From: Candidatus Mcinerneyibacteriota bacterium
GTDB lineage: Bacteria > AUK180 > JAQVHJ01
Reading direction: 5' to 3'
DNA length: 6,350 nucleotides
Assembly: GCA_030630935.1 (NCBI GenBank)
Contig: DAOVMD010000190.1
Span: forward strand, 1 to 6,350
Shown in pieces: positions 105 through 6,350 of the stretch. Both the position numbers and the translations under genes were made by a program. A model generated the notes under the pieces. The model made no database searches and was not told the DNA's origin. It saw nothing but the letters and a program-made list of their open reading frames with translations. How positions within the stretch are numbered: position 1 is the stretch's first letter; the number at the start of each line of letters is the position of its first letter.

Positions 105-3100
105 TTACGACGACGTATAAGGAACAGAATCCGGGGTTGGTTCACTCGCTACCTGAGTCGCAGTATTCCATGTAAACCCTGGACTATCTCCAGCAACATA
201 CCTTAAATCATAATGCCCACTTGAATTGTTTCCATTCCAACCGTCATCGCCGGGAGCTTGCCATGATAATTCAAACTGACCGGGTATAGTAGCATAATAA
301 AAAACAGAAAGAGTCGCAGCTGCTGGTTCAGTTGTATCACTACCCGGGGCGGTATACCCAAACCAACCCATTATAGCATCAATATAATCAGCTTGTGTAT
401 ATGGACCATCAATAAAGCACCCAAGTAAAGCATCCTGATATATTGTTTTGAATGTCCCTGCATCATATTCAAGGGCATAATATTCAAGATCACTGCTGTT
501 TTTTAGTAGGTAATTTGAACTCTTTCCTATGTTATCAACGTAGTTATTAAATGAACTTCCCATTGTATCATCGGATAAATACCACCAATCCATACCTGCT
601 GCTACTGAACCGGGTTCCCCGTTTAACCTAGTTATTTCACCAGGTGAATCATCCTGACCTATTCCCTTAAAATTTGCCTGTAGGTAATCTCCATAAAAAG
701 AAGTACCATCTAAATAAGGAGTTGATTCTCCGAGAATGGGTTTAGGTGGATCGTCTTCATTAAAAGTTTGCATTCTACCCAAACTTACACCTTCAAGATA
801 AAGGTTTTTATTATTTGGACCGGTTCCTTCATCAAGCCAATTCTGAATTTTTGTATAAGGAACATCTACCCAATACCCATTAAGGATCCAAGACCACTGA
901 ATATGACCTTGTGCAATAAATAAGGTAGTAATTCCGCTTAAATCATACGGTAAATCATCCTTCATATAAGTATATTGATAGTTACTGTCAGATAATGCTT
1001 GTGTAATATATGAATCTGTATCCAAATCATCCGGTCCACAGGAATCATTGCCATCCGCATCATAAACTACAACATCAAACTTACCGTATGTGAGGGTTAT
1101 GGTTTTATCATGAGTAAACTCATTAAGTGAAACGTCTGTATAAGTGATCGATATATCAAACTCGACATTACGTGGAATTGGACAACTGGTAGGAACAGAA
1201 ATATAAATTGGATTTCCTGAGTTATCATTTGTTGCTTCTGAATTAATTGTTCCGTAAGAAATATTTGTAAAATTAGCCATATTGGTATAAAAATCATCGG
1301 TTGTGATCTCAGCAATTTTTACATTTAGTGCTTGAGCACTTCCAATATTCTTTAATGTAATGACTAATTGTGTATTTGATTCACCGGGTTCAATAACCCC
1401 GTCACCGGCATTATCATCGATCCAGCCTGCAACAACAATACTTGGAGAAGGAGCAGCATTTAATAGAGCCGCATCTGCATCGATAATACCAAATCCATAA
1501 TATTCATTATAACTCTGGGATGTTGCATCACCAGGATCACCACCGTTATCAGTATAAATATCGTCATTTATAAGATCATAATCTTTATATTTTGCAGTTT
1601 TACGTAAATACAATCTAATATCTGTATTCGAAGCACCTTTACTCTTCATTAGAGCGGCAACACCGGCTACAACAGGACATGAATAAGATGTTCCTGAAGA
1701 AACCCAAAATGTAGAGGGTGGATCAACTTCAAAATCACTCGTTGAAGTAGGACAAGTCTCATCTGGAAATGAATAAGAAATGAACTGGGCATTTGTCCCG
1801 TAATCATGGGATCCGCCACCAGCCATGACATCAACTTCCCCTTCTTCATCCCCCTGAAATCCGGGAGTTGGTCCATCACCATAACAAGAACCCCAGCTAT
1901 CGCCGGATTCTTGTGCAGATGCGTGCAAGGTAGGTTCATTGTCAGGGCACATAATAACCCCGTCACTCTCTACTGCACCTACTGCAAGACAATTAACATA
2001 ACCCGCAGGAAAATGTACAGCGATCCAGCCATTAGCTGTTGATGCAACACAAAAGTTTCCATTAGTTTCGGCATCATTTATTGCAGTTCGTTCAACTGCC
2101 GCAGGAAAAGGACCACCAATTGACATGGATGTAACATCTGCTTTCAGCATAGTGGCATAATAAATTCCCTCTACAAAATCAGCAGTGGTTGTTCCAACAG
2201 TTTCAATTACTCTTACCGGGATAAGTGAACAGCCCCAAGCAATACCTGCCATTACAAAACTATTTTCTGCATCGGCTGAGTGAATATGAGTAGTTGAAGT
2301 ACCATGTGATTCACATTCAGGTGAAGGGTATGGGTCAGTATCGTTAGCTATGGTATCTGCACGGTAAACACCATCGTTAGCTACAAGAATACTTGGAGTA
2401 ACATAGACGGTATTTTGAATTGTATCAAAATCTGTGTAGACATTTGTCATGTGTTCAAGCTCGGGTGATTTCTTATAAGCACCCACATTATCATAAGCAC
2501 TGCCTGTATCAAGGTTTGCAATCCTGATGTTTGGATCTCCGCCATAATTGCCAACACCCATTCTATCCCAGCCGCCTGGCATATTACATGCACCACCAGT
2601 CTTAGAATGACCTGATACATAAGCCTTAATATACCACTGTCCGTCACCCCAAACACCTGCACCATTATAATATGGTTCAGTGGAAGGAGTCCAGTGTAAA
2701 ATTCTTATATGGTCAAATTCAGCAAATTCAATAGCCGGATCTTTATTCAATTTCTCAAGTAAGGTTACCTTTGTTTCACCTGTCGGAATAGAAACCTTTT
2801 CAAAAGCACCACGGCGATGGCGGCAAGAACCTACAATCGTAATATTGTACTTCTTGTTAATTTCTGCAAGTTTTGTATAAACCGATTCGCCTCTGTTCTT
2901 CTGATAAAATTCCGGTTTGTATTTAACAATTACATAATCAGCAATAACAGTCATTAATTTACCGGTCTTCGGGTTGCGGATGGTTTCCCATTTATTCTTT
3001 CCAATTTGCTTTACTTCTCCTAGTTTAGGAAGCATTGACTGTTTGTTTTTTCTATAGGGAACTTTCAAACCAAAATTGATAGACTCCTGCTTAGTATCTT

Positions 3101-3308
3101 TAACTAAGTGAGTTCTTACTTTTGGTTCTTTTTCTTTTGATTCTTCATTTTTTATCTGCGTTCCCTCAGGATGGTCTCTAACCACCGAGTCGATCTTTTT
3201 AATGATTGGTTTCTGTGTCTTCGCTCCAACCGTCTCAGTAGGTTGAAACAATATAAAGACACAACAGAAAACTAATAGTAATACCAAGTACACTTTTGTT
3301 TTCTTCAT
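105..3308 (-). CDS. Secreted S8 (subtilisin-family) serine protease with propeptide, Ig-like, ThuA/GATase-like and truncated FN3 domains
   Basis: A 1067-residue exported endopeptidase. Residues 1-29 form a Sec signal peptide (MKK, hydrophobic core, probable cleavage after VGA). A Lys-rich linker follows, then an inhibitor-like propeptide at about 122-204 (DYVIVKYKPEF through DPAIEFAEFDHI). The catalytic domain spans about 210-618: Asp267 in LDTGS, His335 in SHGTS, oxyanion-hole Asn427 in STANG and Ser541 in SSGTSYSCPVVAG, so the triad is complete. The Asp-His spacing (68 residues) is about twice that of subtilisin. Residues 622-741 form an Ig/CARDB-like beta domain that opens with an acidic GDGVIEPGES motif. 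Residues 743-985 resemble a ThuA/GATase-like alpha/beta domain (VVVYDADGND, then LYLEGVSLG). An FN3 domain starts near 991 and is cut off at 1067. The start is supported by GGAGG at 3316-3320, 7 nt upstream. A sigma-54-type promoter precedes it. The protease call is firm, the C-terminal domain names less so, and the substrate is unknown. Confidence 0.93.
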   Translation of the reverse strand: MKKTKVYLVLLLVFCCVFILFQPTETVGAKTQKPIIKKIDSVVRDHPEGTQIKNEESKEKEPKVRTHLVKDTKQESINFGLKVPYRKNKQSMLPKLGEVKQIGKNKWETIRNPKTGKLMTVIADYVIVKYKPEFYQKNRGESVYTKLAEINKKYNITIVGSCRHRRGAFEKVSIPTGETKVTLLEKLNKDPAIEFAEFDHIRILHWTPSTEPYYNGAGVWGDGQWYIKAYVSGHSKTGGACNMPGGWDRMGVGNYGGDPNIRIANLDTGSAYDNVGAYKKSPELEHMTNVYTDFDTIQNTVYVTPSILVANDGVYRADTIANDTDPYPSPECESHGTSTTHIHSADAENSFVMAGIAWGCSLIPVRVIETVGTTTADFVEGIYYATMLKADVTSMSIGGPFPAAVERTAINDAETNGNFCVASTANGWIAVHFPAGYVNCLAVGAVESDGVIMCPDNEPTLHASAQESGDSWGSCYGDGPTPGFQGDEEGEVDVMAGGGSHDYGTNAQFISYSFPDETCPTSTSDFEVDPPSTFWVSSGTSYSCPVVAGVAALMKSKGASNTDIRLYLRKTAKYKDYDLINDDIYTDNGGDPGDATSQSYNEYYGFGIIDADAALLNAAPSPSIVVAGWIDDNAGDGVIEPGESNTQLVITLKNIGSAQALNVKIAEITTDDFYTNMANFTNISYGTINSEATNDNSGNPIYISVPTSCPIPRNVEFDISITYTDVSLNEFTHDKTITLTYGKFDVVVYDADGNDSCGPDDLDTDSYITQALSDSNYQYTYMKDDLPYDLSGITTLFIAQGHIQWSWILNGYWVDVPYTKIQNWLDEGTGPNNKNLYLEGVSLGRMQTFNEDDPPKPILGESTPYLDGTSFYGDYLQANFKGIGQDDSPGEITRLNGEPGSVAAGMDWWYLSDDTMGSSFNNYVDNIGKSSNYLLKNSSDLEYYALEYDAGTFKTIYQDALLGCFIDGPYTQADYIDAIMGWFGYTAPGSDTTEPAAATLSVFYYATIPGQFELSWQAPGDDGWNGNNSSGHYDLRYVAGDSPGFTWNTATQVASEPTPDSVPYTSS

Positions 3309-3346
3309 GTTGCTACCTCCGTTTTATGATTAACGACTTATAAACG

Positions 3347-3363
3347 TGCAATCTTTATGCCAA
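3347..3363 (-). promoter_or_regulatory. Sigma-54 (RpoN) -24/-12 promoter of the protease gene
   Basis: Read on the minus strand the site is TTGGCATAAAGATTGCA. It has the invariant GG (-25/-24, at 3361-3360) and GC (-13/-12, at 3349-3348) exactly 10 nt apart, within close matches to the known consensus TGGCAC-N5-TTGCA. The predicted start of transcription is near 3336, giving a leader of about 28 nt that contains the GGAGG at 3316-3320. Spacing and position both fit. Such promoters need an AAA+ enhancer-binding activator, whose gene is not in this window. Confidence 0.75.
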
Positions 3364-3376
3364 TAAAAACATAAAA

Positions 3377-3409
3377 CCCAATTCAATAGATAAATAACTG
3401 AATATTGGG
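3377..3409. repeat. Inverted repeat, operator-like, just upstream of the sigma-54 site
   Basis: CCCAATTCA at 3377-3385 pairs with TGAATATTGGG at 3399-3409: CCCAAT with ATTGGG and TCA with TGA, with a 2-nt bulge and a 13-nt loop. It ends 14 bp upstream of the -24 element and touches a TTGACT box at 3410-3415. It could be a regulator site or a hairpin; no family can be named. Confidence 0.45.
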
Positions 3410-3415: not shown

Positions 3416-3699
3416 TAAAAAATATTTTAAATTAAGAACCTTTTCTTTATACAAAGTTTTGAGTTTTATTTCAGTTTTTTGAAATTTCAATTTTGGGGCT
3501 TTTAAATTCGACCTCCCTGTAAACACAAAAAATTAACAAAATATAAAATTTTCAAATCTCAATATCAGGTTATTTTAAAAATCTAAATCTGATAAAAGAA
3601 CATGAAAGATTGCCAATATCAAAGTCCACAAATCGCCTACCTATCAGGACTTGTGCTGTCTTGTAAGCCGTATCCAAACCAATCAATAGGGTAAGCTAA

Positions 3700-3825: not shown

Positions 3826-4767
3826 TTAGGGATTTATAATTTTTTCGATTTCTAAATCTTTATACTCAATTTTCTTATATTCTTTCATATATTCACTTAT
3901 TATTTTTCTGTTTATCTTACCCCGTAAATCACGTTCAAATTCTCTTTTTATAAACTCCTTTTGTTCTTTAAAACCCCAGATATTATCCAGTCTAATTATT
4001 GCCCAACCTTGATTATAAAGAAATGGTTCTGAAATATCCCCAACTTTTCTAAGTTTATCATAACCAATATTTTCAAATTCTTGTGGAAATTTACCCCTAA
4101 TAATTAACCCTAATGCTCCGCTATTCTTTCGAATATAATCAACACCATTGTAATATTCTTTGGCAAGGGTTTCGAATTTTTCTCCCCTTTTCAATTTTTC
4201 TGCAATCATTTTAATTTCTTTCTCAACCTTTTTAACCTCTTGTTGATCATTCACATCATTTACTACACGGAGTATCTCTGAGAAAGATCTTTTTTCAAAT
4301 TTCACCTTATTTAACTTATAGAAATTCTCCAATTTCTTTTCATCAAATTTATATTTATTGTCTACTTCTTTAATAATCATTGTTCTAATTAGAGCTTCTC
4401 TTGTTTTTATTTCCATTTCTTTTTCGAGTTTCTCTTTTTCAATTAGATAATCTACATCTTTATTATAATCTAAATCGATTGCTTTATCATATAGAATTTT
4501 TTCTTGTAAAAAAAGCTTCAAGTTGTCTTTTATTAAATCTTTATTCTGCAGTATGGCTTCTGTGTTTGTGATTGCAATCATTCTATCAAGAAATTCTTTC
4601 CTCGTAATTGAATAATTTCCAGATGAAATTAGAATTGGATTATCATCAAAAACGAGTTCATTATTCTTAGAGTCTATTGAAGGCGGGACAGGATTTTTTG
4701 AACAAGAAGAAAAAATAATAATTGAAATAAAACTTATGATTGAAAAATATACAAATATTTTTTTCAT
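3826..4767 (-). CDS. SurA/PrsA-like lipoprotein, parvulin-type peptidyl-prolyl isomerase family (foldase/chaperone)
   Basis: A 313-residue lipoprotein. The signal peptide (residues 1-21) ends in FSSC, with Cys22 as the probable lipid-modified residue; the lipobox is loose. A SurA_N-like helical, charged region spans about 45-155 (YSITRKEFLDRM, LFLQEKILYDKAIDL). A PpiC/parvulin-like domain spans about 158-263, with the family signatures GEKFETLAKEY, SGALG (216-220), KFPQEF and VGDISEP then QGWAIIRL. Both histidines usual in parvulins seem replaced, by Glu in FSEIL and Ala in GWAII, so chaperone activity may outweigh isomerase activity. A charged helical tail follows. It is the second gene of an operon, 25 bp after the preceding stop. 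No clear Shine-Dalgarno precedes its ATG, only an A-rich AAAAAGTAA, so translational coupling is plausible. A 60-base sample of the gene is about 28% G+C. Confidence 0.8.
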   Translation of the reverse strand: MKKIFVYFSIISFISIIIFSSCSKNPVPPSIDSKNNELVFDDNPILISSGNYSITRKEFLDRMIAITNTEAILQNKDLIKDNLKLFLQEKILYDKAIDLDYNKDVDYLIEKEKLEKEMEIKTREALIRTMIIKEVDNKYKFDEKKLENFYKLNKVKFEKRSFSEILRVVNDVNDQQEVKKVEKEIKMIAEKLKRGEKFETLAKEYYNGVDYIRKNSGALGLIIRGKFPQEFENIGYDKLRKVGDISEPFLYNQGWAIIRLDNIWGFKEQKEFIKREFERDLRGKINRKIISEYMKEYKKIEYKDLEIEKIINP

Positions 4768-4792: not shown

Positions 4793-5557
4793 TTAATCTC
4801 CAGCTTGAATTTTATAACTTAAAGTATCTGAGTTTCCAATATTATCTGTTACTGAAATATCAAAATAAATATCAATGTCATAAGGGGGATCTTCCTGCAT
4901 TGTAAATAAAAATGTATTAGTAGTACTAGTATCGCTTACTGAAGAACTAACAGGAAGAATTGTATATGTATAGGTATCCGGAAGTTCAAGTTGAGTAAAA
5001 AAGTCAAGGAATTTTTCTACCTGGCAATCAAAATTCAAAGAAGTATCCGGATGATCTACATCATAAGCAGTAATTGTAATAGTTGATGTATTTCCTGAGG
5101 GCCAAAAAATATAAGTGTCAGATATGATAAATGCTGTTTTATTTTCTATTCCTGTTATTACTGGATCATGATTAATCACTCGTAAAGTTTTATATCCTTC
5201 AACTGCAGCGCCTGTTGAATCTTCTACTTTTGCATAGATGTTATAACTGCCAATTGCAAGGGGTGCAGTCCAGATTGCCATAGTTGAAGAAGTTACTTGA
5301 AAAGAACCTCTATTCTGTTCTTCACGGAAAGTGATTGTTAAATCATCTCCATCGTCGTCTTTTGCAACAACAGAAAGTGTAGTAGTAGATAAACTTGAAA
5401 TCACTGCCGGATATATAGTGAGCTCTCCTAATCTCGGGAAAGTATTATATGACGGGATAGTTGGGTTCTTTTGAGGGTCTACACAACCCGTTAAAGCGAT
5501 AAGAGAAACGATAATTATTGAAGTTAGGATTAAACCTAAAAAAATCTTTTTACTCAT
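4793..5557 (-). CDS. Lipoprotein with two tandem Ig-like (PKD/cadherin-like) domains
   Basis: A 254-residue protein exported as a lipoprotein. Residues 1-24 are a signal peptide with a good lipobox LTGC (Cys25). After a short linker, residues about 41-128 form one beta-sandwich-like repeat with an acidic, possibly calcium-binding DDDGDD motif (67-72) and the pattern WTAP...GSYNIYAKVEDSTG usual in PKD/Ig-type domains. Residues about 131-252 form a second repeat with AYDVDHPD (164-171) and the closing DISVTDNIGNSDTLSYKI. No enzyme motif is visible. It is probably a surface or periplasmic binding or structural protein; the exact function is unknown. The start is fixed by GGAGG at 5565-5569, 7 nt before ATG. 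It is the first gene of the operon with the foldase-like lipoprotein and has a consensus promoter just upstream. Confidence 0.82.
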   Translation of the reverse strand: MSKKIFLGLILTSIIIVSLIALTGCVDPQKNPTIPSYNTFPRLGELTIYPAVISSLSTTTLSVVAKDDDGDDLTITFREEQNRGSFQVTSSTMAIWTAPLAIGSYNIYAKVEDSTGAAVEGYKTLRVINHDPVITGIENKTAFIISDTYIFWPSGNTSTITITAYDVDHPDTSLNFDCQVEKFLDFFTQLELPDTYTYTILPVSSSVSDTSTTNTFLFTMQEDPPYDIDIYFDISVTDNIGNSDTLSYKIQAGD

Positions 5558-5592: not shown

Positions 5593-5621
5593 ATTATAAC
5601 ATAAAAATTATTAAATGTCAA
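5593..5621 (-). promoter_or_regulatory. Consensus sigma-70 promoter of the two-lipoprotein operon
   Basis: On the minus strand TTGACA (5621-5616) and TATAAT (5598-5593) are separated by exactly 17 nt, so all 12 consensus bases and the spacing match. An 8-base T-run lies just upstream and could act as an UP-like element. Transcription should start near 5586, giving a leader of about 29 nt with GGAGG at 5565-5569. Confidence 0.85.
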
Positions 5622-6269: not shown

Positions 6270-6350
6270 GTCGAGTAGGCGTATCGTCCTCCTAAATTTA
6301 ATAGTGAGAACGACCGCCCCTCACAGAACCCGCCGTGCGGTTTTCCCGCA
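6270..6350 (-). mobile_element. 3' end of a group II intron (part of domain V, domain VI), probably bacterial class C; continues past the edge
   Basis: At the right edge the minus strand begins inside a domain V hairpin: TGCGG, an A-rich GAAAA loop, CCGCA, then CGGCGGGTTC. The 5' strand with the catalytic triad lies beyond the edge. Domain VI follows: GAG/CTC, a bulged A in CCTACTC, GGCG/CGCC with an adjoining G-T pair, then CGTTCTC/GAGGACG (7 bp, one G-U) capped by an AT-rich loop. The RNA would end in CCTACTCGAC, agreeing with the AY 3' terminus and, as I recall, with the CCUACUC-type ends of class C introns. The bulged A lies 7 nt before the splice site at 6270/6269. The reverse transcriptase gene, if present, would lie to the right. 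Confidence 0.75.

Follow-up and report, generated by a model that had tools for sequence, protein, structure and literature searches.

A conserved sigma-54-type promoter with a candidate enhancer precedes a secreted subtilase gene in an uncultured bacterial phylum

Introduction

Sigma-54 has been portrayed as governing the bacterial exterior (Francke et al. 2011, PMC3162934), and sigma-54 control of chaperone and heat-shock genes has been reported in Bacteroidota and Planctomycetota (PMC12316311). We analyzed a 6,350-nucleotide stretch of DNA (the window), which is an entire contig from the genome of an AUK180 bacterium. AUK180 ('Candidatus Uvuciota') is a phylum listed with three genomes, from deep-sea and hydrothermal sediments (PMC11382960). 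In contrast to the chaperone systems of PMC12316311, the gene behind the sigma-54-type element studied here encodes an extracellular protease and no chaperone.

Results

An exact sigma-54 element lies in front of a subtilase gene

The initial annotation had proposed that a near-consensus GG-N10-GC element precedes a secreted protease gene, at the right distance from a good ribosome site. Both parts of this proposal were confirmed. Positions 3363-3347 of the minus strand read TTGGCATAAAGATTGCA, with GG at 3361-3360 and, after ten bases, GC at 3349-3348; the expected TGGCA and TTGCW blocks around GG and GC are present. The pattern TGGCAYRNNNNTTGCW has one exact match in the window, the promoter site TGGCATAAAGATTGCA itself (0 mismatches). 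The site is intergenic, is oriented toward the gene and stands at a proper distance from the start codon, the ATG at 3308 lying 38 nt past the end of the core. When the local 120 bp were shuffled 2000 times, none of the shuffled sequences (0/2000) gave the motif. The features of this region are as follows.

3347..3362, minus strand: sigma-54 -24/-12 promoter core TGGCATAAAGATTGCA (GG-N10-GC), an exact match to TGGCAYRNNNNTTGCW, kept before six homologues
3336, minus strand: predicted transcription start, 12 nt after GC by arithmetic from the promoter geometry
3316..3320, minus strand: Shine-Dalgarno sequence GGAGG, read directly from the sequence, with the ATG 7 nt on
105..3308, minus strand: exported S8 subtilase of 1067 aa, with PF00082 and an N-terminal signal sequence

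The Peptidase_S8 domain (PF00082) was detected with an E-value of 4.5e-26 and 92.3 bits against a cut-off of 21.8, and in the translation DTG, SHGT and GTSYSCP, candidates for the catalytic Asp, His and Ser motifs, can be recognized by eye. The ORF stops at position 105, near the contig edge. Since homologues reach ~2280 aa, extending ~1200 residues further, the subtilase in the window may be incomplete, and a frameshift or the assembly edge likely lies behind the short ORF.

The element is conserved before subtilase homologues

The closest genomes compared belong to the same family or class only. Six copies of the subtilase gene, encoding proteins ~30% identical to that in the window, were found in five class-level genomes, and all six are preceded by a sigma-54 element 20-45 nt ahead of the start: TGGCATGAATATTGCG, TGGCATAAATATTGCA (twice), TGGCATAAAATTTGCA, TGGCATAGATATTGCA and TGGCACAAATCTTGTA. 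This conservation is the decisive evidence that the element is a sigma-54 promoter. Across six relatives, the exact pattern occurred 53 times in the forward form compared with twice in the reversed form, and 34 of the 48 distinct sites were intergenic. As the promoter has been kept at the same place in six gene copies from five genomes, the subtilase is probably made on demand through a signal-driven activator rather than constantly.

The genome encodes RpoN and NtrC-type activators

The genome containing the window (3.16 Mb in 471 contigs, 80% complete, ~34% GC in the sampled loci) was scanned by sequence pattern, with the same pattern reversed as the control. Exact matches to TGGCAYRNNNNTTGCW numbered four, compared with one for the reversed pattern. 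All four are intergenic and aimed at the next gene; one directly follows an activator gene and lies ahead of a small CxxC-rich ORF and NuoE/NuoF-like genes. Allowing one mismatch gave 58 matches, of which 20 were intergenic; of the 23 matches to the reversed pattern, none was (Fisher p = 0.0004). Coding regions account for 87% of the sequence sampled. Many matches were obtained with a looser composite pattern that included a downstream GGAG, and these were left out of the evidence.

The annotation had made its reading depend on an rpoN gene and had called for a search for enhancer-binding regulators; both are present. The single rpoN gene (C148:5062-5538; PF04552, E 2e-54) encodes a product containing SRRAITKYREQMG (RRAITKYRE), which is close to the RpoN box. 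The sigma-54 activator domain gave eleven strong matches, ten of them complete and one truncated at the end of a contig. Almost all belong to NtrC-type response regulators, and most adjoin a histidine kinase. The GAFTGA or GSFTGA loop is intact in six of the ten complete activators, altered in three and not resolved in one. The altered loops (GAYTHA, GSFTDA and NIATGV) occur in the NtrC-type regulators at L006, L010 and L011 of this genome (G000), and these three proteins may no longer act on sigma-54.

A candidate enhancer dyad is shared with a clostripain promoter

We compared the DNA upstream of the promoter with that of the homologues. A dyad, TTYCA-N6-TGRAA, stands exactly 58 bp upstream of the -24 element in four homologues; weaker second copies lie near -76/-77 in several, and the homologues at L021 and L022 have partial dyads only. 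The window also has a perfect dyad, which differs from those of the relatives in standing at -122 instead of -58 and in having TGAAA instead of TGGAA as its right half.

3469..3484, minus strand: candidate enhancer (activator site) TTTCAAAAAACTGAAA, a perfect TTYCA-N6-TGRAA at -122 from the -24 element
3377..3409, minus strand: imperfect inverted repeat CCCAATATTCA...TGAATTGGG, between dyad and promoter

A perfect dyad arises with a probability of 0.0012 per 250 nt of shuffled sequence, a somewhat flattering figure, the consensus having been drawn partly with the window in view. When the dyad in the form that it has in the window was sought with TGGNA downstream at a similar distance, the window alone matched. 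The sequence (T)CCAATA recurs upstream of several homologues too. Between dyad and promoter, no sequence matched the IHF consensus exactly, and no activator gene adjoining the protease gene was seen in the relatives' neighborhoods that were read.

The 16-mer TTYCARAAAWMTGGAA, built from the relatives' copies, occurs six times in six genomes. Four occurrences are in promoters of subtilase homologues and one is in a clostripain promoter (G005). The sixth is located in G003, 113 bp upstream of a weak sigma-54-like site that precedes the gene for another exported protein; the relative of that protein in G006 has an exact sigma-54 site. Clostripain genes with sigma-54-type promoters were found at two loci.

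L242:258-1667 (G005, C26): secreted clostripain (C11), sigma-54-type promoter with the dyad at -58
L237:351-4100 (the window's genome, G000, C317): secreted clostripain (C11), sigma-54-type promoter

The G005 gene combines the sigma-54 site TGGTATAAATCTTGCA with TTYCARAAAWMTGGAA at -58, as in the subtilase promoters. Its counterpart in the window's genome (PF03415, E 3e-47; 55% identical to the G005 clostripain) has the sigma-54-like site CGGAATAATTCTTGCA and a dyad matching at 9 of 10 positions at -164. The comparison of these promoters suggests that the TTYCA-N6-TGRAA dyad is likely an enhancer. It is very likely that in at least one relative the activator of the subtilase gene also drives a secreted clostripain, and the best reading is that a small group of secreted proteases is under a single activator.

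Predicted sigma-54 targets are rich in exported proteins

A genome-wide search for the motif before other exported proteins, which the annotation had also recommended, revealed a sigma-54 regulon rich in such proteins. A crude signal-peptide rule classed 9 of 16 sigma-54 targets as exported, compared with 22 of 97 background ORFs (23%; p = 0.009, or 0.018 without the window). Proteins probably under sigma-54 control in the window's genome include an OmpA-domain outer-membrane protein, LpxC, a Wzz-type protein, a beta-barrel protein, a DUF6600 protein, an exported CarboxypepD_reg protein, a lipoprotein and a pseudopilin-like protein.

Other sites accompany genes of different kinds. Sigma-54 sites were seen in relatives upstream of Hsp20-family, DnaK and HtrA-type protease genes (L178, L195, L197, L205, L221, L192 and L212), some of them 150-365 nt from the gene; this suggests sigma-54 control of protein quality in the relatives. 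At L016:1586-3016 (G000, C236), a gene for a PqqD-domain protein comes after a sigma-54 site; a small ORF and one of radical-SAM-like type lie behind this gene, and the arrangement resembles that of a peptide-modification cluster. A further radical SAM gene (L111:3711) stands downstream of a sigma-54 site adjoining an activator gene.

A boxA-like motif occurs at the start of some sigma-54 leaders

Of 58 sigma-54 leaders, 9 carry the boxA-like sequence G[CT]TCTTT close to the predicted +1, 11-17 nt downstream of the -12 element, compared with 0.15 expected by shuffling and one in an upstream control stretch.

L016:1530, L101:2019, L112:1140, L121 (minus strand) and L141: boxA-like leader sites
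L183, L193, L195, L208 and L222: boxA-like leader sites in relatives

The transcripts concerned include those before genes for Hsp20, outer-membrane and other exported proteins, and the clostripain leader (L141) likewise carries the motif. The window promoter has only a degenerate AAGTCGTTAATC at this position. The motif could be a Nus-factor site or another signal in the initial transcript. We tentatively raise the possibility that sigma-54 initiation is coupled to Nus-factor antitermination in this phylum, through a boxA-like GTTCTTTRAA at about +1 to +7 of a subset of transcripts. If so, signal-induced transcripts would resist Rho from their first bases.

The upstream lipoprotein operon and other readings of the motif

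Upstream of the subtilase gene, beyond 517 nt of intergenic DNA, lies a lipoprotein operon. The annotation had credited it with a perfect housekeeping promoter, and this promoter is real: TTGACA-17-TATAAT at 5621-5593.

3826..4767, minus strand: PpiC-type peptidyl-prolyl isomerase lipoprotein (PF00639, E 1.8e-12)
4793..5557, minus strand: Ig-like lipoprotein (BLASTP 6e-8 and 3e-6 to lipoproteins at L232 and L230)
5593..5621, minus strand: sigma-70 promoter of the lipoprotein operon, TTGACA-17-TATAAT with extended TG, 12/12 consensus

It is plausible that, as the annotation had supposed, the protease gene and the lipoprotein operon are regulated separately. A lipoprotein related to the Ig-like one is encoded just upstream of the protease in the two relatives examined. 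Directly downstream of the protease, these two relatives encode a PorV-like protein, which fell below the Pfam cut-off in the one scanned. We found no terminator between the operon and the protease gene, no RNA element in an Rfam search over the long intergenic region, and weak local repeats only, in AT-rich DNA. Positions 6270-6350 of the window weakly match the 3' part of a group II intron, with a score of 28.2 bits that falls short of the gathering score; the contig end cuts the match off.

These neighboring sequences bear on whether the sigma-54 motif is a chance resemblance, the protease being expressed instead from a sigma-70 promoter in the AT-rich intergenic DNA or by read-through from the lipoprotein operon. 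The failure to find a terminator would suit such read-through, and several sigma-70-like sites matching 8-9 of 12 positions lie within 520 nt upstream. Weak matches of this quality are, however, expected in AT-rich DNA, and the 26 sigma-70-like sites in the window hardly exceed the 24.8 expected by shuffling, whereas the sigma-54 element stands at the same place in six of six homologues and is absent from shuffles. We regard a chance resemblance as very improbable; a sigma-70 origin of the motif was rejected on its conservation. A different possibility, which is compatible with the sigma-54 promoter preferred here, is that sigma-54 induction is superimposed on low constitutive transcription from sigma-70 promoters or by read-through. 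The long intergenic stretch, the undetected terminator and the strong sigma-70 promoter two genes upstream would all permit such dual control, but none of these observations demonstrates read-through, and we consider dual control conceivable though rather doubtful.

The dyad could also be bound by a repressor or a nucleoid protein instead of a sigma-54 activator, and a palindrome held at a fixed distance would suit a repressor as well. The form of the dyad found in the relatives, however, is almost confined to this promoter class, and the weaker second copies in several homologues are usual for activator sites. A repressor or nucleoid-protein site thus appears unlikely.

Discussion

The motif at 3362-3347, its orientation, its rarity and its conservation are established, as is the presence of rpoN and activator genes. 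We conclude with high confidence that this is a true sigma-54 promoter, opened by a phosphorylated NtrC-type regulator acting from an upstream dyad, and that the subtilase is induced by a signal; the start site, the role of the dyad as an enhancer, the activator concerned and the signal are the parts of this explanation that we infer. RNA polymerase carrying RpoN would sit on 3362-3347 in a closed complex. To open the promoter, ATP would be hydrolyzed by a phosphorylated NtrC-type response regulator at the upstream dyad, for which TTTCAAAAAACTGAAA (3484-3469) is the best candidate. Transcription would then begin near 3336, and production of the exported subtilase would follow once the partner histidine kinase had sensed its signal.

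We thus describe, in an uncultured phylum, a large secreted protease under an apparently signal-gated sigma-54 promoter with a conserved candidate enhancer, which it has in common with a clostripain in one relative. This supports a view of these organisms as regulated protein degraders, with all evidence being computational. The short enhancer sequence provides a handle for finding the sensor.

A literature search on sigma-54-driven secreted subtilases returned nothing pertinent. The locus resembles NtrC-activated sigma-54 (RpoN) promoters in its GG-N10-GC core with TGGCA and TTGCA, in the presence of rpoN and NtrC-type response regulators, and in its upstream dyad; it differs from them in serving a secreted subtilase gene in an uncultured phylum and in that no exact IHF consensus was detected. 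The sigma-54 sites of the relatives before Hsp20 and DnaK genes parallel those described in PMC12316311, and HtrA genes are preceded by such sites too. As in the control of the cell exterior described in PMC3162934, the targets here comprise outer-membrane proteins, LpxC, a chain-length determinant, a lipoprotein, a pseudopilin-like protein and secreted proteins. That work, however, stresses the synthesis and transport of envelope components; the word 'secreted' is absent from its text, and 'protease' appears once, in another context. Sigma-54 control of the exterior and of chaperones has in both cases been published, and the promoter described here is of a known kind. With it, secreted proteases join the features of the cell exterior already linked to sigma-54.
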